This document shows, in pieces, positions 13,901-28,330 of a stretch of 28,330 nucleotides of DNA; position 1 is the first letter of the stretch, and every line of letters starts with the position of its first letter. Location of the stretch: positions 1 to 28,330 of the IMG/VR virus record IMGVR_UViG_3300030060_003887; one strand, given 5' to 3'. Made by a program: the position numbers and the translations under genes. The DNA is from a virus. The notes beneath the pieces were generated by a model. That model searched no databases. It was not told where the DNA came from and worked only from the letters and a program-made list of their open reading frames with translations.

Positions 13901-14364
13901 TTAAGGTTGAATGAATTTTCATCAACTACAGTATTTAAATTTATTATTGTGCCGTCTTGTAATCTTCTTTGTTGTACTGGCAGCCCAAGTAATTGTAATC
14001 CTCTTGGTGTTAAGGCGACTTGTCCTTTTGTATTCCTAATAAAGCCATCGTCACCAACGGAGTTTTGTAATATTCCTTCTTGGTGTAATGGCGAATCTGA
14101 TTTTTCTAAATCATTTATTAGTTTACGTAAAACAACATTTTGTTCTGTTTCTGTTTCAGCTCTACCTAATTTTTGTCTTAAATCTTTACCAAGACCCTGT
14201 TTGATGTTAACACCAGTTTCGTAATCAAAATATAAATCGTCATAAAATGGTGATACAGCGCCTTTAGCTATTTCAGCCCTAGTTTTTTTTCTAGCTTCAT
14301 CTTCGTTTAGTGCATCTACGATATGTGTAACACCTGGAGCAATACCTACTCTGAATGTTGGCAT
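10909..14364 (-). CDS. Large virion protein, probable internal/ejection protein
   Basis: An 1151-aa protein, last in the late operon. It is largely helical and charged, with two hydrophobic glycine/alanine-rich stretches: one near residues 160-200 and one near the C-terminus, about 1000-1045 (starting GGSAGALIAAGLSAA). Long helical proteins with membrane-active segments at this place in podovirus genomes are often internal proteins ejected with DNA into the host envelope, like the T7 core proteins; that role is inferred from size, composition and position. There is no enzyme motif I recognise. Its end overlaps the facing primase gene by 4 nt, with no visible terminator between them. Confidence 0.7.
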   Translation of the reverse strand: MPTFRVGIAPGVTHIVDALNEDEARKKTRAEIAKGAVSPFYDDLYFDYETGVNIKQGLGKDLRQKLGRAETETEQNVVLRKLINDLEKSDSPLHQEGILQNSVGDDGFIRNTKGQVALTPRGLQLLGLPVQQRRLQDGTIINLNTVVDENSFNLKTGDLADLSGIAGPVLTTLLAFLPQAKVVSGVTSLLGKRARLARTLVAGGASAIGKGAEEYLDAQEGFQLQDRDEIGDLLKGEFVLGSVGQGVFGEIPGVVFKSILGKQAPLENQRAAFVASRNLSYMDVKKLDRESVAAGGKFLSNNQILKAAKDGKVKTLDSDYSKGYLPSRAVFEQKLPAQYQAIFERVLGDNRTKYNIPYLRAATNDVLRNIKNERAALNQGISQASKKSLNDQVNTALQDLRVKEQNVTESLRKLLDDVGADILNVGNYKQIPTVRAFGEELKTNLAKAQSAALEQSGELYHGVDTKLLNFRSDEFIYGIDDLGQPFKQIDEATGQPILKTPNEQAKSVAINKAINNIILKHLERGKRIVELDEAKGTMQKMVDPRAEIKSNIRTQLADRLDEAIELAKAGQYDLRMIRNDANFLKRFLGEIAKRSDERKIINAVARIYDDFGVGVDGTKNANSILTELAQEGGKAIDVALANTGLRLGANEKLLIRRALQDLDEANLTHFERMSPFDNKKVEGLVQQGGQGVIAADDVFNNAVIGGKYADLENIFKSLRDYDEYISLDPKLRKTDSSGNFINNYYEKKLKADLKNRLFADALYESTKDELTDVNFTQFAREILKFEKTHKGKFDLLFTDPVTQVNTGPTVRATLNQLNAIGFNPKPQELRKLINDITERNATTGLNPSDQGKLFVQSLNELADATEERIRFEKTRAIADLPNKTIEETVNTIFRPGSASVINTLRNTVDEKVFNDIQQASMQKLLSKSIDLNGEGKVTDLFKSTNLKTSLDSIGDETLDSMFGVQTRRGLRDLQEQIEILTGGEPGKGGSAGALIAAGLSAAIVFQPLTALPTVAGLAIARALLTYPPFVRLMSRSDQGSISQALQIFNTTLRQFGLRMVDGDIIPISEGGVNILDETFEAGKTALGITDEDVDTGVDEGLNLFKQLREQVTAPIRELPQLPQVDTTQASVDPLSPDRLDFAERIAGRPVV

Positions 14365-14365
14365 C

Positions 14366-16282
14366 TTATGTAGACTCTAGATTGATATCTATGATACCAC
14401 TTATATCGCTACTAGTTTGTGGTACGTTCGGATTACCATAGATAATTCTTAATATGTCAGTAACAAAAGGCTCAATAGCATCATTGCCTACGCCCTTATA
14501 TGCTGGATTTCTTACTATGTTAAAAGTTGATTCAATACTTCTTCTTTTGTCTTGATTATTTCTAATTAAGTTTTCTCTAGCGTTAAATAATTTTTTTCTA
14601 ATCTCAGATGGCTTGTCTGTTAAATTTATTTCACCAAACACTCTATCTACTATTTCTCTATCTAAATTAGATATAGTTCGACCTGATTCATTAAGTATTT
14701 CCCTTATACTTCTTTGTTTAACTTGATCTATATAATTAACAATTTTAGTTGAGTCAGATACGTTTTCATCGGTAGAACCAAAAAATGCTTTTAATTTATC
14801 TACACCTCTTACTGCATATCCAGGTAACCCTGTAATAGGAACTTTATTTTTAATAGCTTCATCAAATAAATCTATAGCTGAATCCATAATTGCAATAGAG
14901 GCTTCTGTACCTCCATAATCTTTAACGTCTGTGCTAAGTTTATTAATATCTTTTTGTAGAGCTCCAAGTTGTGATGGCTCTAATAAACTTGCACCTTGAC
15001 TTTTAATTTGTTGTAGTTCAATAGCTAGTTGTCTATCTCTTTCAAATTTTTTCCTTTCTTGTTCCTCGAGCAGATCTCTTGCCGTTCTTTCTTCAGCTGC
15101 TTTTGCAGCACCAGCGGCTAAACCTTCGCCTAGTTGTCCAGTTGCAACTAATTCACTTCCTACATTTCTAATAAAGTCTAAAAATCTGTCAGATCCAAAT
15201 ATACCCGTTGTTTGTTTTGGTATAGGTACTGGTGCAGGGGTTAAATCTACTTGTTCTAACTTAATTTCAGGTGGGTCAAACTTAATAAGATTTTCCGCTT
15301 GTGATTGTTCAACAGTTTTATCAGTATCAACTAAAACTTCTATTGGTGTAATCTCTTTCAAAGTTTTGTCTATTTCATCTTTTACATCAGGTGGCAACTG
15401 TATTTCATCTGGTCTTTCTATAATGTTACCAAATTGATCTCTGCCTATCATGTCTTGTTCAAAAGCTAATCTTCTACCTTGTTCTCTTTCAAAACCCACG
15501 CTTCCAGGCTCAAATCTTGTACCTAAAGTAGTTGACATTTCACTCATGGCATCTATATCAGGTGTAAAAGTTTTTGGTTCTACATCTGTCATACTTGTAG
15601 GTATTTCAGTGTCCAACGTATCTTCTGTTTCAACAACAGGTGTAGTAACCTCATCTAAAGCATCTATTTCGTTTGAAAAATCCTGTACTTCTCCAAGAGC
15701 TCTATCTAATATGGATGCTAATTGTGGATTAGTGTATCCTCTTCTTAATATGCCAGATTCATCAAAACCTGACATAAATCCTTCCTCCGTTCCAGGTCTG
15801 CCTGTAATAGTATCAGGCACATTGGGAAATCTTTGTGATGGAATTAAATCTAATGGTGCAAATTCTGGATCATCCACTGAACGTTCTCCAAATCCAGAAG
15901 TTAAACTTCTGCCTAAATTTACTGCACCTTCACCAATTTGACCTGCAAAATCCAAACCAAAGCCTGCAATATCTCTTAATGCAGATAGCCCTGTTAAATT
16001 ATCTGGTAAAAATTCACCAAACTGAAACAAAGAAGGATCAGTTGATGAAAAAGTAGCTTTTCTCTCTCCTACTATTTGTCTAAATACTTCTTGTGTGGCT
16101 GGACTATAGGTTACATCTGGATTTTGTATTAATGCTTCCAAAGCCGTAATATCTGTATTTCTAAGTATTGGTACGAGCTTTGCTTGATCTAAATATTTTG
16201 TATTACCAGTAGCATCAATATAAAAATAAGGATTTTCTGCACTACCACCTGTTGCAAACATTTTACGATTCATGAAGTTCAT
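14366..16282 (-). CDS. Virion structural protein, unknown role (638 aa)
   Basis: It begins MNFMNRKMFATGG; an MFATGG-like opening is familiar to me from marine phage virion proteins near the tail end of late operons. The middle is acidic and low-complexity (Thr/Asp/Glu/Pro, about 190-370). A long charged helix follows (about 395-435, rich in Glu, Arg and Gln), then a helical C-terminal domain. The start shares one base with the previous stop (TAATG), with a GGAAG site upstream. Probably internal or tail-associated with its neighbours; no catalytic motif seen. Confidence 0.65.
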   Translation of the reverse strand: MNFMNRKMFATGGSAENPYFYIDATGNTKYLDQAKLVPILRNTDITALEALIQNPDVTYSPATQEVFRQIVGERKATFSSTDPSLFQFGEFLPDNLTGLSALRDIAGFGLDFAGQIGEGAVNLGRSLTSGFGERSVDDPEFAPLDLIPSQRFPNVPDTITGRPGTEEGFMSGFDESGILRRGYTNPQLASILDRALGEVQDFSNEIDALDEVTTPVVETEDTLDTEIPTSMTDVEPKTFTPDIDAMSEMSTTLGTRFEPGSVGFEREQGRRLAFEQDMIGRDQFGNIIERPDEIQLPPDVKDEIDKTLKEITPIEVLVDTDKTVEQSQAENLIKFDPPEIKLEQVDLTPAPVPIPKQTTGIFGSDRFLDFIRNVGSELVATGQLGEGLAAGAAKAAEERTARDLLEEQERKKFERDRQLAIELQQIKSQGASLLEPSQLGALQKDINKLSTDVKDYGGTEASIAIMDSAIDLFDEAIKNKVPITGLPGYAVRGVDKLKAFFGSTDENVSDSTKIVNYIDQVKQRSIREILNESGRTISNLDREIVDRVFGEINLTDKPSEIRKKLFNARENLIRNNQDKRRSIESTFNIVRNPAYKGVGNDAIEPFVTDILRIIYGNPNVPQTSSDISGIIDINLEST

Positions 16283-18123
16283 TAACTACTTCCTTGTCTT
16301 GGTGCTAATGCACCATATGCACTAAATGCTGCACCTAGTCCAGCAGCAGTAGGATCTGTTGGCATACCATATTGTGAATCAATTTGCGTTCTTGTTTGTT
16401 GATAACCTGGTAACATAGCACCTATTTGTCCTAGAGTTTGTATTGGTCTGAGTTGTTGACCTAGCTGTTGTTCAAATAATCTCGACAAGCCAGTTTCTTC
16501 TATGCCTCTACCAGTTGTACCAAAGCCTGCTAGTTCTCTTCTTTGTCCAGATCTTAATTGTTCTTGCGTTCTACCAAGATCAGTCATTTGTCCACCAAAC
16601 CCAGCTAATCTTTGTGCTAAGTTACCTGCGGCACTGCCTCGACCTGTGCCAATACCTATTAAGCCTTGTGCTCCAGTCCTTTTAGCCTGTTGTTGTCTAG
16701 CAAACTCTCCAAGACCAGTTCTTTGTGCTTCACTAAACCCTTGTTGTCTGATTCTACCTAATGCTTGTGCTAAGCCTTCTCCTAACGCCTCTCTACGCTC
16801 CATAGCACCAAGTCTTGCTCTACTACCACCAAATGCACCAGCACCGATCTCACGAGCTCTAGCAGCTATATCTTGTTGCTCACCTGCTTCTAAGACATCT
16901 GATATGGTTTGTTGCACTACAGCGTCTTCAAATGGATTAAAAAATTGTTGTGTCATACTAGGATCATAAGCACCCATAGTGTCTTGATAGATCTGTTCTG
17001 CTTGTGTGTAGTATGGATCTTGTAGTTGTTCTGCTCTTCTTGATTGAGCTATAGCTTGATTTACTAACTCTCTATTTTGCTGTAAGAATGGTTCAAAACC
17101 ACCTATACCTGCTACAGCTTGTTGTCTTGCAAGAACTTCTAATGGTGTAAGTCCTGCTGTTTGTTGCAAAGGTACATCACTACCTATAAGGTTTGCACCT
17201 GCTTGTTGAAGTTGCTGGAAGAAACCTGGAGAGTCTACTGTACCAAAATATAACGACCTAATTAATGGATCAGTTAATGTTTCTGCTGTCGCTTGTTGTA
17301 ATAATACTGGATCTATTGCACCAATAGGCATATTTGTATCGGGTACTGCCCCCACATCTGTTGCCACTGCAGCTGGCGTGGTAGGGGCAGGGTCTATAAC
17401 TCCTTCAGAATTAGTAACTCTCGTATTAGGGTTAAGCATACCTGTGTCTGGTGGTGGTGGTGTGCCACCAAGTGACGTTTTAAAACCTGTATTTAAACCT
17501 ACACCACTCATCTCATCTATGGACATACCAGGACCACCTGGTGCAAACATCCCTGTAATGGTGGGGGCAGGGTCTGCAATATTTTGAATTGGCGGTTTTA
17601 TACCACTAGTAGGTGGAGCCACATTTGGTGGAGTAAATCCTGGTGGCAATTCACGACTTAGTTCACGCCCACTCGGATCTATTTGTAGTGGTACTGGTTT
17701 TATTCTGTCTGGGTAATATGTGTCTATAAAATCATCTGTTCCTCCAGTTCTTCCAACTGTATCCACAGATATTGGACCTGCTGAACCAGGAACTATAGGA
17801 GTTGTAGCAAAGTTATTGTTAATTTCAACTGGTGATGCTACTGGGCTTGGTAGTCTTTCTATAGACATAAAATCATCACGTCTTGGTGGTATTATTGGTC
17901 TTTCCAAAGGTCTTGGATCCTGATTTATACCACCTATACCACCTATTGATGGCGGTCTTGGAGGTATAACGGGAGGTGGTGTAACAGGTGGTAATTGTGG
18001 TGGTTGAATAGGTGGTATAGGTCTTACAAACGGCTCTGGTCTTTTAAATATTGGATTAAAACCAGTAATATTTATTGGCTCACCTATAGGTGCCATTATA
18101 GATGCTCTAAAATCTTGTATCAT
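16282..18123 (-). CDS. Proline-rich virion protein (613 aa)
   Basis: The N-terminal half is proline/glycine/isoleucine-rich and probably disordered, with a dense polyproline section at about residues 34-60 and repeated DPAPT-type motifs. The C-terminal half is a glutamine/arginine/alanine-rich helical domain. It contains NPFEDAVVQQTISDV and a GAFGGSRARLGAMERREAL stretch, which I recognise as typical of uncultured marine podovirus proteins, though without a known function. It overlaps the upstream gene by 4 nt (ATGA). Likely an internal or tail-assembly protein. Confidence 0.65.
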   Translation of the reverse strand: MIQDFRASIMAPIGEPINITGFNPIFKRPEPFVRPIPPIQPPQLPPVTPPPVIPPRPPSIGGIGGINQDPRPLERPIIPPRRDDFMSIERLPSPVASPVEINNNFATTPIVPGSAGPISVDTVGRTGGTDDFIDTYYPDRIKPVPLQIDPSGRELSRELPPGFTPPNVAPPTSGIKPPIQNIADPAPTITGMFAPGGPGMSIDEMSGVGLNTGFKTSLGGTPPPPDTGMLNPNTRVTNSEGVIDPAPTTPAAVATDVGAVPDTNMPIGAIDPVLLQQATAETLTDPLIRSLYFGTVDSPGFFQQLQQAGANLIGSDVPLQQTAGLTPLEVLARQQAVAGIGGFEPFLQQNRELVNQAIAQSRRAEQLQDPYYTQAEQIYQDTMGAYDPSMTQQFFNPFEDAVVQQTISDVLEAGEQQDIAARAREIGAGAFGGSRARLGAMERREALGEGLAQALGRIRQQGFSEAQRTGLGEFARQQQAKRTGAQGLIGIGTGRGSAAGNLAQRLAGFGGQMTDLGRTQEQLRSGQRRELAGFGTTGRGIEETGLSRLFEQQLGQQLRPIQTLGQIGAMLPGYQQTRTQIDSQYGMPTDPTAAGLGAAFSAYGALAPRQGSS

Positions 18124-19199
18124 ACTTTACCTATCTCGTTAAACTTTTCAAAAGTTTTCATAAGCTTATCCATGTTCTTTGCACCTTTTTGTCTGTCTGG
18201 TGCACCATTTGGTATTAACTCTATGCCAGTTTCAGTTTTTGTAATTTTAAAACCACCTAAACCATTGTTAGCAGATGATGTCATTACAAACTCACCATCA
18301 CTTAACATAGCTGGTATGTCATCACTTGTACCTGTGCCTGGACCTATACTTGGGCCGCCCATACGCAGGTCAAGTTCTTGTTCATCTATTCTGCCTCCAT
18401 AACTCATTCCTTGTCTTATACCAACATCAAAGCCCGTAAAAGTTGGTGCTGGCATAAGGTCTGGTCTAATAGATTGTCTTATATCTTTTAAACCACCTTG
18501 TTTACCTTCAAAATCTTCTTTAACTGCTTCACCATACAATCCAGCTAAAGCTAATAATGGAAAATTTATACCACCACCGTCACCTTCACCCTTTATAGCG
18601 TCTTCAGCTTTTTTTATGATGCTAGGAGTTTTTAAACCAAAAAAACTACCACTACCAAACCTATTTTGTAAATTAGGTAATATTTGTCCACCAAACGGTC
18701 CTGTTGATTTTGATGTTGAACTTGGTGTTGTCGTTGTAGTTGTGCTTGGTGTTCTGCCAAAAAGACCTGCTAAACCTGATCTAAATTTGCCTTTAGCACC
18801 AAAAAATTTACCAGATGTTGCTGAACTTGCACCTTTACCTAATAAACCCCCTAATGGTCCAACGCCACCAATACCAGCTATACCTAAACCAATAGCTGCG
18901 ACAGGTGCTACCTTTTTAACTACTTTCTTTAAACTTTTACCTAGCTTTTTAAGAAAACCAAACTCAGCCATACCTGTGATTGGGTTGATAGACATACCAT
19001 CGCCCACTGTATACTGATTAGGATCTAAACCTACAGCTATCATTTCTTTTTTTATTGTTTCTTGTGTTTCAGGAGAAAGCACTGGTGGTACTACCATTTC
19101 TCCTGGTGCTACGTGGGCAAGCATGGTGTCTTCTCCTCTACCTAGACCTGCTATACCGCCTGGATTTTCAATATCTATCATGCTCAATTCATTCCTCAT
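18120..19199 (-). CDS. Virion protein with repeated GE-(F/M)-V-motif (359 aa)
   Basis: Two related short motifs flank a low-complexity middle: VAPGEMVVPP (about 30-39) and LSDGEFVMTS (about 300-309). The middle has a basic Lys-rich and glycine-rich hydrophobic stretch (about 84-125) and a Thr/Ser run (about 150-165). Proteins with LSDGEFV-type motifs are common among marine phage virion genes; no function is established. The annotated ATG (19199) overlaps the oxygenase gene by 11 nt, and an alternative start is the ATG at 19181. Confidence 0.65.
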   Translation of the reverse strand: MRNELSMIDIENPGGIAGLGRGEDTMLAHVAPGEMVVPPVLSPETQETIKKEMIAVGLDPNQYTVGDGMSINPITGMAEFGFLKKLGKSLKKVVKKVAPVAAIGLGIAGIGGVGPLGGLLGKGASSATSGKFFGAKGKFRSGLAGLFGRTPSTTTTTTPSSTSKSTGPFGGQILPNLQNRFGSGSFFGLKTPSIIKKAEDAIKGEGDGGGINFPLLALAGLYGEAVKEDFEGKQGGLKDIRQSIRPDLMPAPTFTGFDVGIRQGMSYGGRIDEQELDLRMGGPSIGPGTGTSDDIPAMLSDGEFVMTSSANNGLGGFKITKTETGIELIPNGAPDRQKGAKNMDKLMKTFEKFNEIGKV

Positions 19200-19896
19200 T
19201 ACATTTTAGCCAAAATACTAATAAGTATCTATTGCCTGATTCTACTGCTAGTCCCCTGTGCATATGCGTAAAACTAGGAAATATTAGAGCGTGGCCAGTT
19301 GGTAATGGCTCGACTGTACCACGTTTTAAAAATTCAGTTCCGCCACCTTGGTAATCACCTGTGTTAAGAGGCACTACCATACTTATATCAGCACTTGCAT
19401 CGTGATGCCAAGCACCTTGTTTTTTATCCCTTAAATTATAGTTGGCTATTTGTATACCACCGCTATCTACGTGTCTATTCCAAATATTCAAAAATATAGG
19501 ATTTCCTATAGTATATATCGTTTGCATTAAAGATTGAAAGATTTGTGGACAATTATCTTGAAAAGTTATTTCTGGTATTTGTCTTAAATCATCCTCTTCT
19601 GGATTAGGATTAAAGCCGTAATGTCTTTCTAAATTATGCATTTCATCTAATAACACGCTACAAAACTTTTCTGAAAAGAAAGGAACTGTATACACATCTT
19701 TAAGTGGTTCTTGTATTATTTTATCTAAATCAGTGTCCTTTCTATCGTTTACACCACTATCTTCATAAAAATCCACTATAGGTTGTATTGAATTTCTAAC
19801 GGCATCTAAGGTTTCCTTTTGCACATACCAATCACTTGGATACATAAGTAAAAGGTTTTTTGGTTGATATATAAGTTGTTCTGCTGTATTAATCAT
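19189..19896 (-). CDS. 2-oxoglutarate/Fe(II)-dependent oxygenase
   Basis: A 235-aa protein whose C-terminal half carries the iron-binding facial triad of prolyl-hydroxylase-like oxygenases: HHD (164-166, giving His164 and Asp166) and His213 in HMHRG, with Arg223 in GNRYLL placed to bind 2-oxoglutarate. The GGGTEF (184-189) and PTGHALIFPS (199-208) segments fit the same fold. The enzymes hydroxylate proteins, nucleobases or small molecules; the substrate here is unknown. Its place among tail genes suggests modification of a virion protein or of host-surface material. Related genes occur in cyanophages and other marine phages. All key residues are present. Confidence 0.85.
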   Translation of the reverse strand: MINTAEQLIYQPKNLLLMYPSDWYVQKETLDAVRNSIQPIVDFYEDSGVNDRKDTDLDKIIQEPLKDVYTVPFFSEKFCSVLLDEMHNLERHYGFNPNPEEDDLRQIPEITFQDNCPQIFQSLMQTIYTIGNPIFLNIWNRHVDSGGIQIANYNLRDKKQGAWHHDASADISMVVPLNTGDYQGGGTEFLKRGTVEPLPTGHALIFPSFTHMHRGLAVESGNRYLLVFWLKCNEE

Positions 19897-20219
19897 AATT
19901 CTATTGTTATATCACCATTAGTCTTAACAGAAACATTACCTACATCTGATGCCATTTCAAAACCTTTGGGCAAAGATCTTTCACCAATATCAACCCATTT
20001 GTTACCTGTGTATACTTGCAAAACGCCTACAGTTGTATTCCAAATGATGCTGCCAGCATTAAACTGCAAAGTATTTTTTTCTGCATCACTTATTTGACGT
20101 ACGTTATCTAAATCAACAGCACCAAGATTTATTTCTAGTATTCTTACTAATCTATTAAAAATATCTGATGTAACTTGTTCAGAGGCTAATGGTAGTTGAG
20201 TTTGTAATATTTTACTCAT
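19893..20219 (-). CDS. Small probable tail protein (108 aa)
   Basis: It starts MSKILQTQLPLASEQVTSD and has a beta-rich end with WNTTVGVLQVYTGNKW (about 60-75), a pattern often seen in short tail-fibre or tail-appendage proteins where a Trp/Gly sequence forms a beta repeat. It overlaps both neighbours by 4 nt, between the tail nozzle-like gene and the oxygenase. The role is inferred from position and composition. Confidence 0.55.
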   Translation of the reverse strand: MSKILQTQLPLASEQVTSDIFNRLVRILEINLGAVDLDNVRQISDAEKNTLQFNAGSIIWNTTVGVLQVYTGNKWVDIGERSLPKGFEMASDVGNVSVKTNGDITIEL

Positions 20220-22084
20220 CGCTTACCATCTGGCTTAATATCTACTCTAGTAGCACCTAAACGCCAACCAATAGATAAATTGCCATCATTTGTAGCATCA
20301 TCGTCTGATTCAAAACGCAAAGCCATTTGTCTTGATCTACTACGCACAAATACTTGTTGAGTAGATGAGGTTATAGCACTTGTGGAATTTGTGGTTAGAC
20401 TATCGCCTGGAAAGTTTCTAGTTTTTAGAACAACATTAACATTTCCATTATTGTCATCTTGTATAAATTTGTAGTCTGGTATGATTCTTTTTATAAAACT
20501 GAACTGTTCTCCATCGCCGATATCCATATCAGAGCTTTCTATAAAAACATTAGTCATGGGTGAACCATCATCATTAAAACCTTTTTCTTGTTGAAATAGA
20601 TAGCTATTACCTACAGCTCTAGGATAATTTTCTATACCAGCATCTAACCAAGCTGTTCTTACAAGTTGTCCATAAAACCAGATGTTTTCAGCGTAATTAT
20701 AAATTACATATCTGTCTATTTCGCTTGAGCTAGCAGAACAGTAGAACCATCCAACTTCATTTTTATCTGCTATTGTGAAAGCATTTATTTTAAATGATTG
20801 TGTAAGGTTAATATCATTAAAGACATAGTTATGCACAGAGCAAGGTAAATGTTGGACAGATCCATTGTATACGTAAAAGTTGTTGTAGCTCATCCAATAC
20901 ACGCCTTGTGGTGCAGTTACAGCTGCTTTAGGACCTACTAAACCCACACCTTCGTTAATTAAATTTATACCAAAGGTAAACGGTGGTCCAATAAACTGCA
21001 TGCTATACAATGAAGTATCAGTCCATACCAATATTTCTTGTCTAGCTTTTACGCCACCAATAATTGCAGAACCGCTAGATAATCTTAATGAACCAGCAGT
21101 ATTTGTTGTCAGTGGCTCAAAATCTAGTTCATTTTCTTGGTCACTAAATGCAATTAACATCGGATCTATACTACCTGTTCTTGAAGAGCCTGATATTGGA
21201 TCTGCACCTAAAACTATTAAATGCCTGTCTTTTTCTGATGTTATTACTTGTAAGCCTACTGTTGGCACTAAATTAGCACCAGATATACCTGATAGCTCAA
21301 CGGCTCGTGTTGTAACACCATTATTCTCTGTCCATTTAAATATACCACCTGCTCTGGGATTTATAATTAGATCTTCACCAAAATTATCATGCGACCAAAT
21401 TCTAAGTTGGTTTGTTGCATCCAAAGCACTTGTACTTCCAAACGTGCCAACACCCCAACCATCTATACCCCATCCTGTACCAGGAACGAAAACATCTAAA
21501 CCGACATTAACTTGGTAAGCACCTACAACTGAAGATCCGCCATTACCACTGTCAGATGAGTTTGCAGTAACAGTTGAACCAGAAGTATCTTTAGCTTCTA
21601 TGGTATAGCTATTTGCATTAACTATGGTTGCTATTTGATACTCTTGATTTAGAACAGCAGCAGTAATATTACCTCCTAATGAAGATGCACCACTAAATGT
21701 TACAAAATCATTTTGCACAGCTCCGTGAGCAGCATCTGCAACAGTAATAGTAGCGTCACCATTTGTAGCAGAAAATGTTACGTCACCTGCGGATGTTGTT
21801 AATCTTATTGGTGTTATATCGTTAAATACAGTACCACTTTCTATGTAATATTTGAGGTGTGTACCAATACCAAGATATTTTGTACCACCTAATGATATCC
21901 ATCCATGTAACGCTCTAGCTGTGCCTAAGTATGTGGAAGATGATAATTTTTCCCAGCCACCAAACTTTTCTGGTCTACCTTTTCTAAAACGCACCAAGTT
22001 ACAATCAAACCAACCACCCTCATTGTCGTAAGCAGTACCCTCTCGATTAATACCTGGTCTAAAAACTAATTTTTGTAAAGGCAT
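20216..22084 (-). CDS. Tail nozzle / DNA stabilisation protein (P22 gp10-like, tentative)
   Basis: A 622-aa beta-rich protein opening MPLQKLVFRPGINREGTAY, then a GGWFDCNLVRFRKG motif (about 23-36) and FGGWEK. This N-terminus marks a widespread phage structural family often annotated as packaged-DNA stabilisation protein, and is probably equivalent to the P22 gp10 or T7 gp12 nozzle that extends the short tail. Repeated aromatic/Gly blades suggest a propeller-like body. The insert at about 100-190 (Ser/Thr/Ala-rich) may be an added domain. A GAGG site lies before the ATG, which directly follows the lysozyme stop. Confidence 0.65.
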   Translation of the reverse strand: MPLQKLVFRPGINREGTAYDNEGGWFDCNLVRFRKGRPEKFGGWEKLSSSTYLGTARALHGWISLGGTKYLGIGTHLKYYIESGTVFNDITPIRLTTSAGDVTFSATNGDATITVADAAHGAVQNDFVTFSGASSLGGNITAAVLNQEYQIATIVNANSYTIEAKDTSGSTVTANSSDSGNGGSSVVGAYQVNVGLDVFVPGTGWGIDGWGVGTFGSTSALDATNQLRIWSHDNFGEDLIINPRAGGIFKWTENNGVTTRAVELSGISGANLVPTVGLQVITSEKDRHLIVLGADPISGSSRTGSIDPMLIAFSDQENELDFEPLTTNTAGSLRLSSGSAIIGGVKARQEILVWTDTSLYSMQFIGPPFTFGINLINEGVGLVGPKAAVTAPQGVYWMSYNNFYVYNGSVQHLPCSVHNYVFNDINLTQSFKINAFTIADKNEVGWFYCSASSSEIDRYVIYNYAENIWFYGQLVRTAWLDAGIENYPRAVGNSYLFQQEKGFNDDGSPMTNVFIESSDMDIGDGEQFSFIKRIIPDYKFIQDDNNGNVNVVLKTRNFPGDSLTTNSTSAITSSTQQVFVRSRSRQMALRFESDDDATNDGNLSIGWRLGATRVDIKPDGKR

Positions 22085-22567
22085 TTACACCTCAGTCCAA
22101 TCTTTGCCTTCAAACAACAAAGCTTCACTTTTTCTTCTTTTTACTAATCCTTCGTTTACCTCACCATTTACTTTATTCCATCTTTGTATTTGATATGGTA
22201 TATCTGCCCAATCAACATGCGTGCTATTTAAAACTTTTAACATAGTTGAATTTTTAAGATTAGTTGGACCTAGATTAAAAACCCAAGAAACTAAAGCGTC
22301 AAACTGGTTTTGGTTTAACTCTACTTTTACCAAATCATGTACGTAACCTTCATATTCTTCAAGTTCATGAGCTAATAATTCTTCAGCTTCTTCCATAGTT
22401 ATAGTCATGTTATCTTCAACAGGTGTGCCATCTTTTAATTTTAAAGACCCATAGCCTATCGTAGGCTTGTTAGCAGGACATCTGTAAGACACAGCATTAC
22501 CATCTGCATCTTTGGGACAACCTTCATAATGTTTTATAAGCGTTACGCCTTCTTGTGATATTTGCAT
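22085..22567 (-). CDS. Endolysin, phage lysozyme (GH24)
   Basis: A 160-aa muramidase that cuts the glycan strands of peptidoglycan at lysis. The catalytic glutamate lies in KHYEGC (Glu15), followed by YRCPANKPTIGYGS, where Cys30 and Thr36 match the Glu-Cys-Thr version of the T4-lysozyme active site with an enlarged loop. NQNQFDALVSWVFNLG and a GLVKRRKSEALLF segment complete the fold. The start is set at 22567, where GGAGAG lies 5 bases upstream; the frame extends to 22624 but that start has no site and overlaps the holin gene. There is no signal peptide, so release depends on the holin gene just upstream. Confidence 0.92.
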   Translation of the reverse strand: MQISQEGVTLIKHYEGCPKDADGNAVSYRCPANKPTIGYGSLKLKDGTPVEDNMTITMEEAEELLAHELEEYEGYVHDLVKVELNQNQFDALVSWVFNLGPTNLKNSTMLKVLNSTHVDWADIPYQIQRWNKVNGEVNEGLVKRRKSEALLFEGKDWTEV

Positions 22568-22568
22568 G

Positions 22569-23048
22569 TTACTCTCCTTTATCGGGGGTGTGAGATGCTC
22601 CGAAATAAAACGAAATAATTGCACTCGCTAGTCCTCCTAAATAGCCAAGCACTAAGTTAATTAACGCTTCGCTGTTTTGTTCTGGTGGTTGTAAAGTTAC
22701 TAAAAATATATACCCTAAAAATCCACCAATAGTAAATAAACCTATAATACGAGCAGTCCAATCCTTACTAAACATACTTCTTGCATTTTGTTTATCTGCT
22801 ACCTCTAGTTTAAAAACATCAACATCAAGCTCTTTCATTTGTACTTCAAAGTCTTGTTCTGCTTTTTTTAACTCTAACATTTGTTCAGGAGTGGCGTTTT
22901 GAATGGCTTGTTGTATAGATTTTTGATCATTTGATACGCCTAAAACCTCTGCTATTTTTCCCATAGCCATATTGCCAAGAGGTCCACCCATGGCAGACCC
23001 TAGTGTAGGTGCTACTGCACCAACAATATTTTTTAGTAATCCTTTCAT
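22569..23048 (-). CDS. Holin-like membrane protein (159 aa)
   Basis: Hydrophobic segments lie at about 5-26 (glycine-rich), 100-119 and 128-150, separated by a charged helical region (about 55-95). The arrangement, with an NARSMFSKDWTARI stretch before the membrane hairpin, resembles the three-segment holin family known from gene-transfer agents and phages. It would open the inner membrane and free the lysozyme encoded 1 nt downstream. It overlaps the XhlA-like gene by 4 nt. Confidence 0.75.
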   Translation of the reverse strand: MKGLLKNIVGAVAPTLGSAMGGPLGNMAMGKIAEVLGVSNDQKSIQQAIQNATPEQMLELKKAEQDFEVQMKELDVDVFKLEVADKQNARSMFSKDWTARIIGLFTIGGFLGYIFLVTLQPPEQNSEALINLVLGYLGGLASAIISFYFGASHTPDKGE

Positions 23049-23260
23049 ATTAAAAACCTCGTTAGAACAGCAATACCAATAGCACCTATGAAACCAAACA
23101 CTCCAAAAGTTGCAGCTTTTATGGTTGAATTTATATAGGTAATTTCTTGTTTTATATCAGAAAACTCGTTAAAAGCAGTTTTCCAACGTTCATGAGATAT
23201 GGTTTCAAGCTTTGTAAGCCTTTCTGCTACATCATTAACTGTCATTTTTTTATCAATCAT
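23045..23260 (-). CDS. XhlA-like lysis-associated protein (71 aa)
   Basis: An N-terminal coiled coil (about 8-45) is followed by one C-terminal membrane helix (about 48-70), the layout of XhlA/hemolysin-type phage lysis accessory proteins. It lies between the cyclase and the holin genes, overlapping both (8 and 4 nt). An ATG at codon 6 is an alternative start. It may help the holin or tether the lysis complex; a spanin role is less likely because there is no lipobox or periplasmic partner. Confidence 0.6.
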   Translation of the reverse strand: MIDKKMTVNDVAERLTKLETISHERWKTAFNEFSDIKQEITYINSTIKAATFGVFGFIGAIGIAVLTRFLI

Positions 23261-25013
23261 TTTGTAACGTATATATTTTAATTGGCTTTACTTTGCCTTT
23301 TACAAAAATACTTTCAAGTTCTTTCAATACAATTTGATCGCTGAAGTCACTTGCACTGATAGTATCATAACCTATAACAATATCTTCTCCAACTTCCTTT
23401 GTTGAGCTTTCTAATCTCGCTGCTAAATTTACAGCATCACCTATAGCAGAATAATCAAATCTAGTTTCACTACCCATGTTACCAACCACAGCATATCCAG
23501 TGTTGATACCAATGCCTATTTGTACACCAAGATTTGCTTTTTTAAATTTGTCCTGTATATCCTGTGCACATAAAACTGCCACAGTTTCATGGTTTGGAAC
23601 GTCTATAGGTGCATTAAATATAGCCATCATAGCGTCACCAATATATTTATCTACCATACCATCATATTCTTTTACAGTATTTGCTTGTATCGTTAAAGCT
23701 TCATTCATAATTTTAGTAACTTCTTCTGGTTCAAGTTTTTCAGACATGGCAGTAAAACCTCTAACATCAGTAAAAAGAAATGTGCAATATCGTCTTTCTC
23801 CACCTAGTACTAAAGATTCTGGATTATCTTGTAATTTTTTTACCTGTCTTGGATCTAAATAATGCTCAAACTGTTTTTTAATCTGTTGTCTTAGCTTGTA
23901 TTGTTGTCTAAATCTAAGATAAAAGGCTATTGATCCTGTTATAAATTCAGATATCAATGTCCAGGACACATCTATTAATAATCCCTTTTGTATTAGAAAG
24001 TAACCAGTTGTAGTGGTAATTATCATTAAAACCGTTGCAATAGTTATACCCCAAGTAATACCCAATAGGTGCAAAGCAAACCAAACTAATGATACAAAAA
24101 CGACTAACGAAAGCATTTCTACAGCTAATGCATAATCAGGTATATAAGGGCTATCTTGAATTAATATAGATTCTGCTAGTGCAGCTTGTATTTTATGTGG
24201 TTCTAACAAACCAACACTTGTCGCTACTTGTGGCATCACTCCGTTAGCTGTAACACCTACGAACACAAACTTACCTGCAACGTGCATCTCTTGTAACGTA
24301 GTTTGTTTAGTATCTACCCAACTAATCCATTTACGTCCAAAACTATCTGTTTTAACTGGTGGTATTCCACGTATTGATATTTCTTCAATACCATTATCAT
24401 TAGTTTTTATAATATAAGTTTCTACATTTAATAAAGATTTATAGATTTGTGTACCAAAACTAGGTATCCAGTCGTTATTGGGTGTTTTTACTAATAAGGG
24501 TATTCTGCGTACTAATTGATCAATATCTGTGGGAGCAATGGCTAACCCTTGAAGTGTGTGATTGGATAAGAGAAGCAGGTTCTCCTTCACTCCCGTTGAC
24601 ATTATACCACCATTATCGTCTCCTAGCACAACCGTACCAGGTGTTTTAGGATAATTACCCTTACCATCTTCAAACATAGCCAAGACTGATGGTGCAAACT
24701 TTAATGACTCTGCAAATATTTCATCGCCACCCATACGGTCTTTTTGAGGAAAACTTATAACCCAACCTACGCCTATGGCACCATTGTTAATTAAATCTAC
24801 TTGTATTTCTGCTAATCTTTGTCTAGGTATAGGCCAACCTCCCTCACGCTCTACATCATCTTCAGTAATATTTAGTATTACAAAGTTACCAGATGGTTCT
24901 GGTGTTTTTACAAAAGCGTCAAATACTTTTAATTTAAGTATTTCTGTAGGTGTTGATTGATTGATTACTGGTACTAAAAGTATTATAAGTATTGGTAATA
25001 ATAGTTTCTTCAT
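23253..25013 (-). CDS. CHASE2-domain class III adenylate cyclase
   Basis: A 586-aa inner-membrane sensor enzyme that should make cAMP from ATP. Order: N-terminal membrane segment (3-18), periplasmic CHASE2 domain (about 25-290), three membrane helices (about 296-317, 320-341, 347-366), linker, then a class III cyclase domain (about 405-585). Active-site residues are intact: metal-binding Asp415 (FTDVRGFT) and Asp460 (KYIGDAMMAIF), purine-selecting Lys456 with Ser522, and Asn529 and Arg533 in VNLAARLES. Lys with Ser/Thr at these places favours ATP over GTP. It directly follows the FecR gene with no gap; FecR-CHASE2-cyclase neighbours are common in bacterial genomes, so the pair was probably acquired together. 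The signal sensed is unknown. Confidence 0.9.
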   Translation of the reverse strand: MKKLLLPILIILLVPVINQSTPTEILKLKVFDAFVKTPEPSGNFVILNITEDDVEREGGWPIPRQRLAEIQVDLINNGAIGVGWVISFPQKDRMGGDEIFAESLKFAPSVLAMFEDGKGNYPKTPGTVVLGDDNGGIMSTGVKENLLLLSNHTLQGLAIAPTDIDQLVRRIPLLVKTPNNDWIPSFGTQIYKSLLNVETYIIKTNDNGIEEISIRGIPPVKTDSFGRKWISWVDTKQTTLQEMHVAGKFVFVGVTANGVMPQVATSVGLLEPHKIQAALAESILIQDSPYIPDYALAVEMLSLVVFVSLVWFALHLLGITWGITIATVLMIITTTTGYFLIQKGLLIDVSWTLISEFITGSIAFYLRFRQQYKLRQQIKKQFEHYLDPRQVKKLQDNPESLVLGGERRYCTFLFTDVRGFTAMSEKLEPEEVTKIMNEALTIQANTVKEYDGMVDKYIGDAMMAIFNAPIDVPNHETVAVLCAQDIQDKFKKANLGVQIGIGINTGYAVVGNMGSETRFDYSAIGDAVNLAARLESSTKEVGEDIVIGYDTISASDFSDQIVLKELESIFVKGKVKPIKIYTLQND

Positions 25014-26132
25014 TTAATCACTCTGAGTGATAGTAATTATACTATCGCTACCACCATTTATTTTAATTACGTTAGATACACCATCTTGTATTAGTATCAC
25101 AGTGTAAGCATTACTACCGTTTACATCTACTCGCACACTCTCATTTACTTCTCTACGTAAACTTACTAAATTACCTGTAATAAATGCGGTGATTTGTGTA
25201 TCTGGATCTTTACCAAGTAAAGTGCCTGTGATTTGTGTTGTGGTAGCTTGAGCTAAAACATCTTCTTCTTCGTCTATGGCTAATGCATCTAACACATTAA
25301 GCAAGTCTTCTAAATAGTTCACATCAAGATAATTTATATCTAACTCAGTAAATTCTAAACTATCTTCTTTTAAATAATCCTCTGCAAGATAATCAATATC
25401 TAAATCATTAAAGTCCAGGACGCTATCTGATTTTGTTGTGGTAGCTTCTTCTTCAACCAATACTTCTTCTTTAGGTGGCGTAACAATAAGCATGTTATCT
25501 ATCACGTCTAAGGTAAGATCTAAAATAACAGGTTTAGTAGGAGCTGATTCAAACACGCTTACGGTGGTTGCTTCGTAAGGTTTATTAAGTATAACAGTGC
25601 CCATAGCAGTAACTACCTCTATTTCGCCACTAGAAAGCCCCAGAGCGTCTGGTAGCAAAATTATAAGGCTACGCCCTAATTCATCAACTGTTGCTGTAAA
25701 ATCCGTCCCACGTATTGCTATATTAGCTGTAGGTGTTTTAAGGGTAATATTTTGTTTATCTATACGATTTAGATTGCCTGTTATAAACCTTGCAGTGCCA
25801 AGACCAAAGGTTAGAGCCATCTTTGCTTTACTAGGATCGGGATCGTATATGTATTCGTCTATAAGAAGCTGACTATGTTCTGTAAGTTTTACAGTAGATT
25901 CATCAAGAAAAGTTATAGCCATACGCCCATCTTTGGTTATGGCTTCATCATTACTTTGTATAGCAAACTTTAAGCCTGCATCATAAGGCTTGTCTCTAAC
26001 AATTTGTGCAGTGCCGTTTAATTCAGATATGTCGCCAATATCAACAGCTTGTGCTTGTACCTTGGTCGTTTTGAACAACACAAACGGTAGAAGCAGCAGT
26101 GCCAGATACAGATATAATCTTGAGCCAGTCAT
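25014..26132 (-). CDS. Secreted FecR-domain protein with curlin-like C-terminus
   Basis: A 372-aa exported protein. A signal peptide spans 1-28 (hydrophobic LALLLLPFVLF, then VQAQA). A FecR domain spans about 35-190, with NGTAQIV (39-45), a DESTVKL strand (77-83) and the hallmark TPTANIAIRGTDF (133-145). A Val/Glu-rich linker and a very acidic tandem stretch built on an LDIxYL theme follow (239-290). The C-terminus (about 338-370) is beta-rich and contains Q349-x-G351-x-x-N354, the core spacing of curlin repeats. It may be a periplasmic or surface partner of the cyclase, or cargo of the CsgG pore; both are inference. The signal peptide is encoded inside a 92-nt overlap with the preceding gene. 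Confidence 0.8.
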   Translation of the reverse strand: MTGSRLYLYLALLLLPFVLFKTTKVQAQAVDIGDISELNGTAQIVRDKPYDAGLKFAIQSNDEAITKDGRMAITFLDESTVKLTEHSQLLIDEYIYDPDPSKAKMALTFGLGTARFITGNLNRIDKQNITLKTPTANIAIRGTDFTATVDELGRSLIILLPDALGLSSGEIEVVTAMGTVILNKPYEATTVSVFESAPTKPVILDLTLDVIDNMLIVTPPKEEVLVEEEATTTKSDSVLDFNDLDIDYLAEDYLKEDSLEFTELDINYLDVNYLEDLLNVLDALAIDEEEDVLAQATTTQITGTLLGKDPDTQITAFITGNLVSLRREVNESVRVDVNGSNAYTVILIQDGVSNVIKINGGSDSIITITQSD

Positions 26133-26769
26133 TATCTTGTGTACTTAGTTGTGAAATATTAAATGTTCTTGAGCCACCTGTGTGATCAAGATAAAAATAT
26201 CCACCTGCTGAGGCTGTAACACCTGTGCCAGTGTAAGTAACAGAGTTATCTGAACCGTCAATATCCATATAGTTTGTTGCACCATCTATATTTATATTAG
26301 ATGTTATAGTGTTATTAGAACCATTTATAATCCAATCTAAATCTAAATTTGATGCCATAGCACTTGTGCCTTGATTTAAAGTAAAAGTGTTACCGCTACC
26401 TGTAACATCTACATATTGATTAGAACCATCAGAGCTATAAGTGTCTGTTGGATCTACTTGTATTGTAAAAGTATTGGTACCGCCATCAAATTCATAAAAA
26501 CCAGTAAAGTTGTCTGCAAATATATCTCCTAGGAATTTATTGGTTGCACCAATCATATTTATATCAAGTGTCATACTATTACCGTCTAGATCAAAAGCAG
26601 TTAAGTTACCTGCTGAACTATTAAGACCACCAATAATATTTGATATACCTAGTTGTTCTAAATCTATATTTGCTCCTGTACCTGACTGATCAACATATAT
26701 TTCATTATCTGCTGAAAATAGTGCAAGTGAACAAACAGCTAATACGCTAATAAGTTTATTCTTCATCAT
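26041..26769 (-). CDS. Secreted curlin/beta-solenoid-like protein, candidate CsgG cargo
   Basis: A 242-aa protein with an N-terminal signal peptide (about 1-20). Just after it, Q28-S-G and Q39-L-G-I-S-N44 reproduce the curlin Gln-x-Gly-x-x-Asn spacing. The rest is made of short Asn/Gly/Asp/Thr-rich beta units (for example GSGNTFTLNQG at 124-134, GSNNTITSNINIDGATN at 150-166, GSDNSVTYTG at 172-181), as expected for a beta-solenoid or amyloid-like fibre. The end has two cysteines (230 and 242). It overlaps csgG by 14 nt, so it is a natural cargo candidate. It is not a plain CsgA or CsgB: the repeats are irregular. Function as an amyloid is inference. Confidence 0.7.
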   Translation of the reverse strand: MMKNKLISVLAVCSLALFSADNEIYVDQSGTGANIDLEQLGISNIIGGLNSSAGNLTAFDLDGNSMTLDINMIGATNKFLGDIFADNFTGFYEFDGGTNTFTIQVDPTDTYSSDGSNQYVDVTGSGNTFTLNQGTSAMASNLDLDWIINGSNNTITSNINIDGATNYMDIDGSDNSVTYTGTGVTASAGGYFYLDHTGGSRTFNISQLSTQDNDWLKIISVSGTAASTVCVVQNDQGTSTSC

Positions 26770-27604
26770 TTAATTCTACTCCTTCGTTATTATTTTGTAA
26801 AACCCAGAAACCTTTTTCATATCCAGTTTCAATTATTTCAAGCACACCACCTTCAATAGCTTTCATCAAGGCAATAGTGGACGATTCATTTCTTGCATTA
26901 CCAAACTCAACTTCTACAAGTTCGGTATTTGCTTCCACAAATCTAAAAACATCTTCTGATCTACCATAACTAAATATGGTTTTTTGACTTAAAACTTCTA
27001 ACAAAACCTCGCCAGTTGCTACAGAAACCATACGCATACTTATGGTTATATTATCTTCTCTGTATTGTACGCTTGCTCCTATACCTAGATATCTAGCACC
27101 AGAACCACCACTTTCTAAATTAGCTTCGTAAGATAAAACAGCTCCTTCTATAAGAATACCAGCAAATAATAAAGGTCGTAGAGCTTTTTTCTTTTCTTCT
27201 TCGTTTGCAGATTGTTCTCTGGCACTACGAATGAGCTGTCTTTCCTTAGTAAGGTTATCTAGTCCTACTCGCTCAACAACTCTAAAAAACTTGCCGTCAC
27301 CTGCATGTTTTAAAGCTCTAATTAATAAAGCATTTGGTTGTTGAGTTATAGCTGTACTAAACAAAGCGAATTCGCTATTGCTTTTTCTTTGACCTGTTTG
27401 ATCCGTAAATGACATAGGATATACGGCTACGACTGGACTAACTTGAGGTATTGGTACGTTTTTTAATTGTTGTGATTGTATATCTTGTATTTTGGCAACG
27501 TCTTTAGAAAACCTTTGCTCGTAAGTGTCTTCAATCTGATCTAATGTAGAACAACTAGAAAGTAAAAGTGCCAATAGGAATAACGATTTCGGTAACTGTA
27601 CCAT
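26756..27604 (-). CDS. csgG: CsgG-like outer-membrane curli secretion channel
   Basis: A 282-aa lipoprotein, close to the 277 aa of E. coli CsgG. The signal peptide ends in a lipobox LSSC with Cys18 as the lipidation site. It keeps the family pattern along its whole length: VAVYPMSFTDQTGQRK (59-74), FSTAI (82-86), the ERVGLDNLTKERQLIR helix (111-126), LIEGAVLSYEANLESGG (151-167), ARYLGIGA (170-177), SVATGEVL (194-201) and FRFVEA (220-225). CsgG forms a nonamer pore through which curli subunits cross the outer membrane. The residues lining the narrow ring (Tyr51, Asn55 and Phe56 in E. coli) appear changed except the Phe. It lies between a CsgF-like gene and a curlin-like gene. No CsgA, CsgB, CsgD or CsgE is visible. 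Confidence 0.93.
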   Translation of the reverse strand: MVQLPKSLFLLALLLSSCSTLDQIEDTYEQRFSKDVAKIQDIQSQQLKNVPIPQVSPVVAVYPMSFTDQTGQRKSNSEFALFSTAITQQPNALLIRALKHAGDGKFFRVVERVGLDNLTKERQLIRSAREQSANEEEKKKALRPLLFAGILIEGAVLSYEANLESGGSGARYLGIGASVQYREDNITISMRMVSVATGEVLLEVLSQKTIFSYGRSEDVFRFVEANTELVEVEFGNARNESSTIALMKAIEGGVLEIIETGYEKGFWVLQNNNEGVELNDEE

Positions 27605-28067
27605 CTGCCTCAGTAATTTTAAGGGTTAAAGTTACACCATCACTTGTATACTCAATAGTATTACCTTCTAAAGTGATGACACCTTCGCTCTGCGGTGTTT
27701 CTCCGAATAAGTTATTTACTAACTGTCTTGATAATTCTGCGTAAACTCTAGACTCTAAATTACGCATAAATCTTGCAAGAGTAGAGTTTTCTTTTTCTCT
27801 TTTTATCTCATCTTGTAAGGCTTTTATTTCTTCTTTTATTGTAAGTTTACGTGTATGTTCTTGGTTTTCTATTGTTAAATAATGACTAGACGTGCCTATA
27901 CCGTTAAAACTTGGAGATTTAAATTTATGTGTTATGGTATCTGATTTTAAATTTATAGCAATAACAGAAACAAACATAATTGCACCTATAAAAAATAACC
28001 AAGCAACTATTTTAGTTTTTGCAACTTCATCTTCTATCTGTCTTTTTTTAGTCTTTTCTTTGATCAT
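27555..28067 (-). CDS. csgF: CsgF-like curli assembly protein with membrane anchor
   Basis: A 170-aa protein. Residues 49-56 (FKSPSFNG) match the mature N-terminus of CsgF (FRNPNFGG in E. coli), the part that plugs into the CsgG barrel. The C-terminal beta region (about 130-168, TLTLKITEADGTVTEIVIP) matches the CsgF C-terminal domain. Differences from E. coli CsgF (138 aa) are a charged cytoplasmic-like leader (1-19), a hydrophobic segment (20-40) without a clear cleavage site, and an added charged helix (about 73-118). It overlaps csgG by 50 nt and the upstream gene by 20 nt. In the known system CsgF sits with CsgG and couples secretion to fibre nucleation. Confidence 0.8.
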   Translation of the reverse strand: MIKEKTKKRQIEDEVAKTKIVAWLFFIGAIMFVSVIAINLKSDTITHKFKSPSFNGIGTSSHYLTIENQEHTRKLTIKEEIKALQDEIKREKENSTLARFMRNLESRVYAELSRQLVNNLFGETPQSEGVITLEGNTIEYTSDGVTLTLKITEADGTVTEIVIPIGTFTF

Positions 28068-28330
28068 CTCTATCTGCTTTTGCTATTTTGTTACTATCAA
28101 TTAGTTGTGGAACACCTAATATAGTTTTAATTAAAGTGTCCTGGCGTATAATTTCATTATCTAAGCTACGCACTCTGTCTATCAATGCTACTAAAATACC
28201 ATGCTGAGAGTCAAGTTTTGTACCTAGCCTTTCTTCTATAGCTGCTATCTGACCTTCAACTTTTTCATCAACGGTATCAAGTTTTGTTTCCATACCGTCA
28301 ACAATACGCATTATAAGTTTATAAATAAAC
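28048..28330 (-). CDS. Coiled-coil protein, probably 5'-truncated by window edge
   Basis: From the ATG at 28311 the product has 87 residues, mostly a long charged coiled coil (from MRIVDGMETKLDTVDEKVE onward), then a short hydrophobic stretch and a polar tail. The frame stays open upstream to the window edge and no ribosome site precedes 28311, so the true start may lie outside. It overlaps csgF by 20 nt. It resembles small coiled-coil phage proteins beside lysis or tail genes; no family is assigned. Confidence 0.6.
   Translation of the reverse strand, partial: FIYKLIMRIVDGMETKLDTVDEKVEGQIAAIEERLGTKLDSQHGILVALIDRVRSLDNEIIRQDTLIKTILGVPQLIDSNKIAKADRDDQRKD

Follow-up and report, generated by a model that had tools for sequence, protein, structure and literature searches.

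We examine a stretch of 28,330 bases of viral DNA, IMG/VR virus record IMGVR_UViG_3300030060_003887 (the window, by which we mean the whole stretch), that carries on its minus strand a set of genes for curli-type (type VIII) secretion next to its lysis genes. This is a real, conserved and selected phage curli-export cassette, and the system was first described, in sister phages, by Wittmers et al. (2022; PMC9599517). Judging from sequence and gene order, we think it fairly probable that the cassette is a phage-encoded minimal type VIII secretion module, which would be made late together with the lysis proteins and would export a curlin-like surface fibre. What we add to the published picture is the apparent fixation of the cassette in a lineage where PolA was not found, its apparent coupling to lysis, doubt about a published 'histidine kinase' label, and a division of the cassette into core and accessory genes.

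All genes of the cassette lie on the minus strand, and the first of them (28048..28329) is cut by the edge of the window; it encodes a small membrane protein with a transmembrane (TM) segment and a coiled coil, which we call CC. It is followed by a CsgF-like protein with an N-terminal hydrophobic export segment (27555..28067; PF10614, E = 7.5e-14; phrog_35372, 3e-40), a CsgG-like outer-membrane lipoprotein pore (26756..27604; PF03783, 6.9e-46), a beta-rich curlin-like cargo protein with an export signal (26041..26769; no Pfam family over its cut-off), a periplasmic or exported FecR-domain protein with a beta-rich C-terminal tail (25014..26132; PF04773, 1.9e-9) and a CHASE2 class III adenylate cyclase (23253..25013; PF05226, 6.7e-26; Guanylate_cyc PF00211, 1.0e-19). 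Directly downstream on the same strand come a coiled coil of 71 amino acids (aa) with a C-terminal TM segment (23045..23260; no family match over cut-off), a holin-like protein (22569..23048; phrog_1544, of unknown function, 4e-28) and a phage lysozyme, the endolysin (22085..22624; PF00959, 2.1e-38; phrog_7, 4.3e-54). By their coordinates CsgF and CsgG overlap by 50 nt, CsgG and curlin by 14 nt and curlin and FecR by 92 nt, the FecR and cyclase genes abut, and the cyclase overlaps the 71-aa coiled coil by 8 nt. Promoter and terminator scans returned fewer sites than in shuffles. PHROG families exist for CsgF, CsgG, FecR and the cyclase, every one of them labelled 'unknown function'. A first-pass annotation made from the sequence alone had proposed a curli-type secretion and cyclase cassette within a phage late operon, and profile matches and gene order show this identification to be right: the five genes that it named are present at 23253-28067, each overlapping or abutting the next (four of them with Pfam matches), and run into lysis genes as it said, the label 'XhlA-like' for the 71-aa coiled coil being an assignment by eye only. 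Its gene list was correct for these five and overlooked the sixth, CC.

Bacterial-type genes within a phage contig could point to misassembly of phage and bacterial DNA, an artefact that the first-pass annotation had named beforehand as fatal to its claim. Our loci come from four scans, each limited to its best 80 (out of 177, at least 599, 194 and 185 loci), and most were found through CsgG; loci that also hold the window's virion gene (20216-22084) represent its closest relatives only. The virion gene is intact in 103 loci, 33 of which have more than 8.2 kb upstream, corresponding to 31 contigs and 30 distinct sequences. All 30 carry CC, CsgF, CsgG, curlin and FecR, and 29 carry the cyclase, so that the co-occurrence in related viral sequences that the first-pass annotation had suggested looking for is found. 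Fifteen of the 33 covered loci came from a search with the virion gene itself (15 of its 80 loci are fully covered, and 3 of those 15 contigs were also found by another of the four scans); here 15 of 15 have the five core genes and 14 the cyclase. In L003, an 11.85-kb contig with 100% identity to the window in CsgG, the same gene run continues through lysozyme and virion gene. Because the same arrangement recurs in all 30 distinct sequences (33 loci, 31 contigs), we give misassembly practically no credence, and for the same reason the cassette looks fixed in the lineage of the window. Models of csgF, csgG, FecR and cyclase have no match in 16-kb stretches of five annotated phages related by their virion gene, DSL-LC04, HTVC023P, HTVC027P, CRP-902 and 023Pt_psg01 (CRP-902 gives a single weak curlin-model match of 17 bits), and none of the five is among the CsgG or cyclase matches listed for whole phage records. 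DSL-LC04 keeps the holin-endolysin-virion gene order without the cassette. In six loci (L032, L034, L039, L044-L046), 461-640 bases with small reading frames lie between FecR and the cyclase.

To place this lineage, we note that the annotated phage collection holds no DNA near-identical to window positions 10001-28330. The virion gene is closest to that of DSL-LC04 (41.8%), followed by Roseobacter phages CRP-902 and CRP-901 and by HTVC027P, with HTVC023P lower among the matches listed. Genes for capsid (MCP) and terminase (TerL) are not found in the window itself. In sequences from L164 and L165, from a relative of the window phage, MCP is 66-67% and TerL 55-57% identical to HTVC023P and HTVC027P, and in a near-complete relative (G003, 52,455 bases, its contig ends overlapping imperfectly) the capsid protein is 66-69% and the terminase 55-62% identical to HTVC023P, HTVC027P and DSL-LC04. 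PolA (PF00476), the gene by which the HTVC023P-type genomes were gathered (PMC9599517), is found in none of nine records, namely the window and eight relatives of 38-57 kb (one, of 52,455 bases, near complete; the others may be fragments). The window-type virion gene is seen in the locus for five of these eight relatives (L103, L031, L019, L155, L123) and is not in the loci of L026 and L060; L054 ends before that position. Since capsid and terminase are held in common with the HTVC023P type and PolA was not found in any of the nine records, the window's group looks like a structural sister lineage of HTVC023P-type podophages without PolA, and the cassette's apparent fixation there is new relative to published work. 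Two further genes of the window can be recorded here: positions 3502-4989 match a DNA methyltransferase family (phrog_116, 3.2e-74), and the family model of 19189-19896 gives weak matches to HTVC023P-type phage genes, of which two carry the annotation 2OG-Fe(II) oxygenase and one '2OG-Fe(II) oxygenate superfamily'.

A wider census reveals which genes the cassette can do without. It comprises the 212 of 315 loci examined in the four scans in which CsgG is present, one per identical central 500 bases; near-identical contigs remain, and the counts are not of independent events. CsgF and CC are present in all 173 loci with more than 1.4 kb upstream, and curlin and FecR in all 108 with more than 4.8 kb downstream. 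The cyclase is found in 97 of these 108 and is missing from 11, about a tenth (10 after follow-up). A search of whole contigs for eight of the 11, in which two positive controls matched, leaves seven without a cyclase and one (L268) with a cyclase further on; L282, L303 and L332 lie outside this search, and L128, with the same CsgG as L127, is likewise without a cyclase. Cyclase-less single-curlin loci still have the conserved FecR tail. As FecR and its tail are kept where the cyclase is missing, FecR seems to have a role independent of the cyclase, and as the cyclase is missing from about a tenth of the loci while FecR and curlin are in all of them, the sensing of cyclic AMP (cAMP) looks accessory and export looks to be the core function. 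The same counts weaken the suggestion of the first-pass annotation that cAMP production is tied to envelope state.

Median pairwise dN/dS, the ratio of nonsynonymous to synonymous rates (120 pairs per gene, loci L003-L158), is 0.079 for CsgG, 0.083 for curlin and 0.078 for FecR; these three genes are under purifying selection, near the level of the virion gene (0.062) and below the lysozyme (0.258). The corresponding values are 0.085 for the holin, 0.081 for CC (quartiles 0.042-0.520), 0.158 for CsgF and 0.152 for the cyclase.

We now turn to the lysis genes. A match to a lysis model lies within 2.6 kb downstream of the cassette in 86 of 94 single-curlin (podophage-type) loci (a set that excludes 13 loci with a second curlin as well as L268, with lysis models that derive from the window lineage), which makes the adjoining lysis gene noticed by the first-pass annotation the rule in such loci. 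Four of the remaining eight were read by eye; a holin-like gene comes next in all four, accompanied in three by an M15-peptidase-like gene. None of the 13 two-curlin (myophage-type) loci has a lysis-model match next to the cassette. The median gap is -4 between the cyclase and the Xhl gene, as we call that of the 71-aa coiled coil (44 loci), and +8 between cyclase and holin (20 loci); the lysozyme is the next modelled gene in 21 loci, about 980 bases on. By eye, the lysis module comes either as Xhl-holin-lysozyme, as in the window, or as nested Rz/Rz1-like genes with a lysozyme; such a nested pair, between cyclase and lysozyme and without the window-type Xhl-holin pair, stands at L019:14752-15436, L021:9867-10551 and L026:7238-7931. 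The model of the holin-like protein matches an annotated 'holin of 3TMs' of DSL-LC04 (E = 4.9e-5). The same holin family also accompanies the cassette in a different phage backbone (L199:12503-15833), where it stands directly ahead of CC and not after the cyclase; this contig is binned with a Neomarinimicrobiota metagenome-assembled genome (MAG) and has, by eye, collagen-like repeats upstream. RNA structure at the cyclase/Xhl junction is nothing notable (z = -0.96). Taken together, the cassette looks lysis-coupled in the sister lineage where PolA was not found.

The gene ahead of csgF deserves separate attention. Its slot is occupied by either one or two short proteins (about 80-120 aa), each combining a single hydrophobic segment with a coiled coil; the full-length copy of L003 has 116 aa with the hydrophobic segment at its N-terminus, this segment exceeds the threshold in 270 of 275 copies, and the myophages HTVC008M and Melnitz have two such genes each. 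All 22 members scanned match phrog_18771 (unknown function). At E <= 1, ten match phrog_4898, a PHROG family of holins (best 6.1e-6; the L003 copy, which is closest to the window's, reaches 0.021) and seven match phrog_1296, also holin (best 0.0054; 0.016 for the closest copy). CC is thus a small membrane coiled-coil protein with a weak resemblance to holins. By position and number it is probably the gene labelled 'histidine kinase' by Wittmers et al. (PMC9599517). Profiles lend that label no support: the protein, of about 80-120 aa, yields no kinase family among the 25 Pfam families matched (22 members, E <= 1).

The pore genes are the clearest part of the cassette. CsgG matches solved CsgG structures (4.6e-48), the PF10614 match of CsgF exceeds the Pfam cut-off, and the pore protein of type VIII secretion and its partner are thus both present. 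A lipobox pattern is found in 202 of 208 complete CsgG copies and, because it marks a lipoprotein, places CsgG in the outer rather than the inner membrane. A 1,499-base 'Salmonella phage' record (OR851715.1) encodes a CsgG that is 42% identical to the window's and is perhaps host csg DNA. For the curlin-like protein, the AlphaFold model (pLDDT 79, pTM 0.77) is all-beta except for the signal helix, and its profile aligns with that of the myophage second curlin at 97.3% probability (hhalign, E = 2.5e-11; a single comparison between shallow, repeat-rich profiles). Seven of nine myophage second curlins match Pfam Curlin_rpt at E <= 0.01, and by profile the window's protein would be homologous to them. 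A PA14 domain precedes the curlin repeats in 2 of the 9 myophage second curlins scanned, that of HTVC008M (L200:10094-11419) being one; this is a feature of the myophages and not of the window. Several other myophage second curlins begin, by eye, with an unrelated region. The myophage fibre subunit may therefore carry exchangeable head domains, PA14 being one that an adhesin might have. The FecR protein matches PF04773 in 20 of 20 family members scanned, and its tail is modelled as a beta ladder, with pLDDT of about 60-77 for the strands, in an AlphaFold model that is otherwise poor (overall mean pLDDT 39.5).

As for the cyclase, the catalytic columns D, K, D, S/T, N and R of the alignment are intact in all 120 cyclases, the window's included, with K invariant; the base-selecting residues K and S/T are those of adenylate cyclases. 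At L012:8461-10223 the gene is broken into a pair of overlapping frames, which may reflect a frameshift or an error of assembly. The cyclase is also carried by HTVC008M, for which HTCC1062 is the recorded host. Among 147 genomes of the order of a Candidatus Pelagibacter genome, however, none has a class III or class I cyclase (controls matched), and none has the cyclic-nucleotide-monophosphate (cNMP)-binding fold in a gene of CRP size; that fold occurs in 10 of the 147, where 10 of the 11 matches fall within frames of 870 aa and the remaining one within a frame of 372 aa close to the end of a contig. Nine phage records searched for it likewise contain no cNMP-binding domain, and we found no literature joining Pelagibacter, adenylate cyclase and a cAMP receptor. 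If SAR11 is the host, cAMP would be a messenger without a known receptor.

From the genes, their order, their conservation and the purifying selection on them we infer export, pore assembly and a fibre, and the steps might run as follows. Sec would export the lipoprotein CsgG together with CsgF, the curlin-like protein and FecR; CsgG would form a nonameric outer-membrane pore together with the N-terminus of CsgF; and the curlin-like subunit would leave through this pore and polymerise into a fibre on the surface of the infected cell before lysis. FecR may act on cargo or pore in the periplasm, as a nucleator, a chaperone or a gate replacing the missing CsgE, with CC as an inner-membrane partner. 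Where the cyclase is kept, its CHASE2 domain could read the state of FecR or the pore and turn it into cAMP, as an optional sensor; this step draws on the CHASE2 cyclases of Sinorhizobium meliloti, which are reported to be controlled via the outer-membrane beta-barrel NsrA (PMC13001267). The likely benefit would be an altered surface of the dying cell, by which siblings or debris could be captured or rivals excluded. We favour export because CsgF, CsgG, FecR, CHASE2 and the cyclase are all matched by profiles, because the pore is always accompanied by its cargo and partners in the covered loci, because CsgG, curlin and FecR are under purifying selection, because profiles show the curlin to be a homologue of myophage curlins, and because the second backbone carries the module, as far as the contig goes, beside the same holin family; expression is supported by published metatranscriptome evidence for the module (PMC9599517), and the late timing by the packing of the cassette against the lysis genes.

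Several results weigh against this reading. The window's curlin falls below every curlin Pfam cut-off, Curlin_rpt is matched at E <= 1 by only 12 of 22 members of its family (weakly, best 0.025), and a Pfam search of whole records finds curlin repeats in only 2 of 10 phage records, one of them over the cut-off. Against the PDB the curlin model finds nothing at E <= 0.001 (the top match, at 0.13, is a beta-helix of Fe-S assembly; a CsgA fibril comes at 4.1), so that no solved amyloid is matched at this level. The curlin-like end that the first-pass annotation saw on FecR receives no support from profile comparison (hhalign probabilities of 0.8% and 7%), the predicted beta ladder notwithstanding. 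CsgE (PF10627) is absent from all 13 phage records tested while the E. coli control matched, a lack that we do not regard as decisive because Alphaproteobacteria are also reported without csgE (PMC3521004). Finally, no such fibre is reported; the authors who described Melnitz saw no clumping in cytograms or by transmission electron microscopy (PMC9004378).

How else might the cassette be explained? One idea, taken from the Melnitz work (PMC9004378), is that CsgG and CsgF form an outer-membrane or pinholin-like channel that shifts permeability before lysis, with the curlin incidental. The frequency of lysis genes after single-curlin cassettes and the weak resemblance of CC to small holins speak for it. 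We nevertheless hold it to be unlikely: a bare pore needs neither cargo nor FecR, both of which are in every covered locus under strong purifying selection, the 13 myophage-type loci have no adjoining lysis-model match, and the lipobox puts CsgG in the outer, not the inner, membrane. If instead signalling of envelope state were the purpose, with the pore as part of the sensor and cAMP tuning the infection, the intact catalytic residues and the FecR-CHASE2 pairs of bacterial biofilm operons (PMC5192318) would make sense. This we consider decidedly improbable in view of the loci that lack a cyclase, including seven of eight searched contigs without any, the absence of cNMP-binding domains from the phage records, and the absence of class III and class I cyclases from the 147 genomes of the Pelagibacter order described above, only 10 of which have a cNMP-binding fold.

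A third proposal is that the pore, ungated in keeping with the missing CsgE, lets in nutrients or cofactors for phage replication (PMC7029224, PMC9599517); we find it very improbable, for it leaves unexplained both the conserved cargo and FecR and the late placement beside lysis genes. Barely credible, in our estimate, is a Pycsar-type defence-like cyclase system or other superinfection-exclusion effector. The cyclase domain does match 12 PADLOC PycC models (best 4e-27), but class III cyclase domains generally resemble PycC, the residues K (invariant) and S/T are of the adenylate-cyclase kind, and the seven other cassette and lysis proteins scanned match no Pycsar effector model and, at E <= 0.1, no PADLOC model except a weak ZorB match to CsgF (0.0026). 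The export reading can also be extended, with a small chance of being right, to a secretion-coupled lysis checkpoint, in which the late curli exporter, the holin-like CC and periplasmic FecR would signal the state of export or of the fibre to the lysis module, and cAMP, where the cyclase is kept, would be a phage-introduced messenger in hosts seemingly without a class III or class I cyclase or a CRP-sized receptor.

The joined cassette, for which the first-pass annotation had named no precedent, is not itself new: CsgF-CsgG-CsgA/B-FecR-adenylate cyclase was published in 2022, in the same gene order, for HTVC023P-type podophages and pelagimyophages (PMC9599517). That paper derives the module from Alphaproteobacteria by trees, reports its spread, its transfer and metatranscriptome evidence of its expression, and discusses superinfection defence, sibling capture and uptake. 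A CsgF/CsgG pair and 'sibling capture' had also been reported (PMC7029224), and the Melnitz paper (PMC9004378) proposed a role in lysis, stating also that this phage is without csgA/B; contrary to this, the Melnitz record annotates two curlin-repeat proteins. Beyond PMC9599517, we found no pertinent literature that brings together four or more of the subjects phage, CsgG, CsgF, FecR and adenylate cyclase. The pelagiphage module has the order 'HK', CsgF, CsgG, CsgA/B, FecR, (second CsgA/B), adenylate cyclase, and CsgC and CsgD are absent there, as is CsgE both there and here. It differs in that it was found in 9 of 80 genomes, as opposed to all 30 covered close relatives here; PolA was not found in the window or its eight relatives, the window type has no second curlin, and its upstream gene is a TM coiled coil without a kinase match. 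Holin, endolysin, lysozyme, PA14 and 'coiled' are not mentioned in the main text of that paper (figures and supplements are outside the comparison). Comparable in layout are the myophages HTVC008M (KC465899) and Melnitz (MZ577097), with CC-CC-CsgF-CsgG-Cur-FecR-Cur-cyclase, where Cur is curlin; they have two curlins, two CC genes and no lysis genes annotated alongside, and their cyclases are 31-35% and CsgG 45-46% identical to the window's.

Bacterial curli systems (csgBAC/csgDEFG and alphaproteobacterial csg loci) have CsgG, CsgF and a curlin cargo in common with the cassette, but in five of five genomes the 16 kb round csgF-csgG contain no CC, FecR or cyclase model match (E <= 0.01), the FecR model being built from phage proteins such that distant bacterial FecR could escape it. 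S. meliloti CyaD1, CyaD2 and CyaK share the CHASE2-cyclase architecture and the coupling to a barrel, NsrA; they differ in that no FecR or curli cassette is described in the parts of PMC13001267 used here, and their cAMP is read by Clr, a relative of CRP, whereas the phage records hold no such binding domain. The Burkholderia BiofilmReg operon (PMC5192318) resembles the cassette in having a FecR-domain periplasmic protein beside a CHASE2 sensor, tied to biofilm, and differs in that its CHASE2 is part of a histidine kinase, its FecR protein has LysM, and no CsgG appears in the description we used. In the class to which a Rhodobacteraceae bin belongs, CsgF matches occur in 7 of 385 genomes (6 over the cut-off); one of the seven is that bin, which bears the phage-type cassette, and five of the others supplied the 16-kb stretches just mentioned. 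CsgG matches occur in 5 of 197 genomes of the order of a Candidatus Pelagibacter genome, where the one strong match (9.3e-46) is a 3-kb contig bearing the cassette of the phage type, whereas four are weak, partial and not matched by our CsgG model. A profile search of the genome contigs with a CsgG alignment gave seven loci, all phage-type cassettes and all in metagenome bins. Such contigs lie in MAGs named Maricaulis, Neomarinimicrobiota, Flavobacteriaceae, Rhodobacteraceae and Pelagibacter (L166-L172), and CsgG in such bins may therefore be viral.

For work on these phages, the census sets five invariant core genes (CC, CsgF, CsgG, curlin, FecR) apart from a cyclase that is optional, and so guides which genes to delete first, and it is CC, the gene ahead of csgF, whose published 'histidine kinase' label is put in doubt. 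If the cassette does act as a late exporter, many marine phages would supply curli-free hosts with an amyloid exporter just before lysis, with possible effects on aggregation, on superinfection and on what becomes of cell debris in the ocean.

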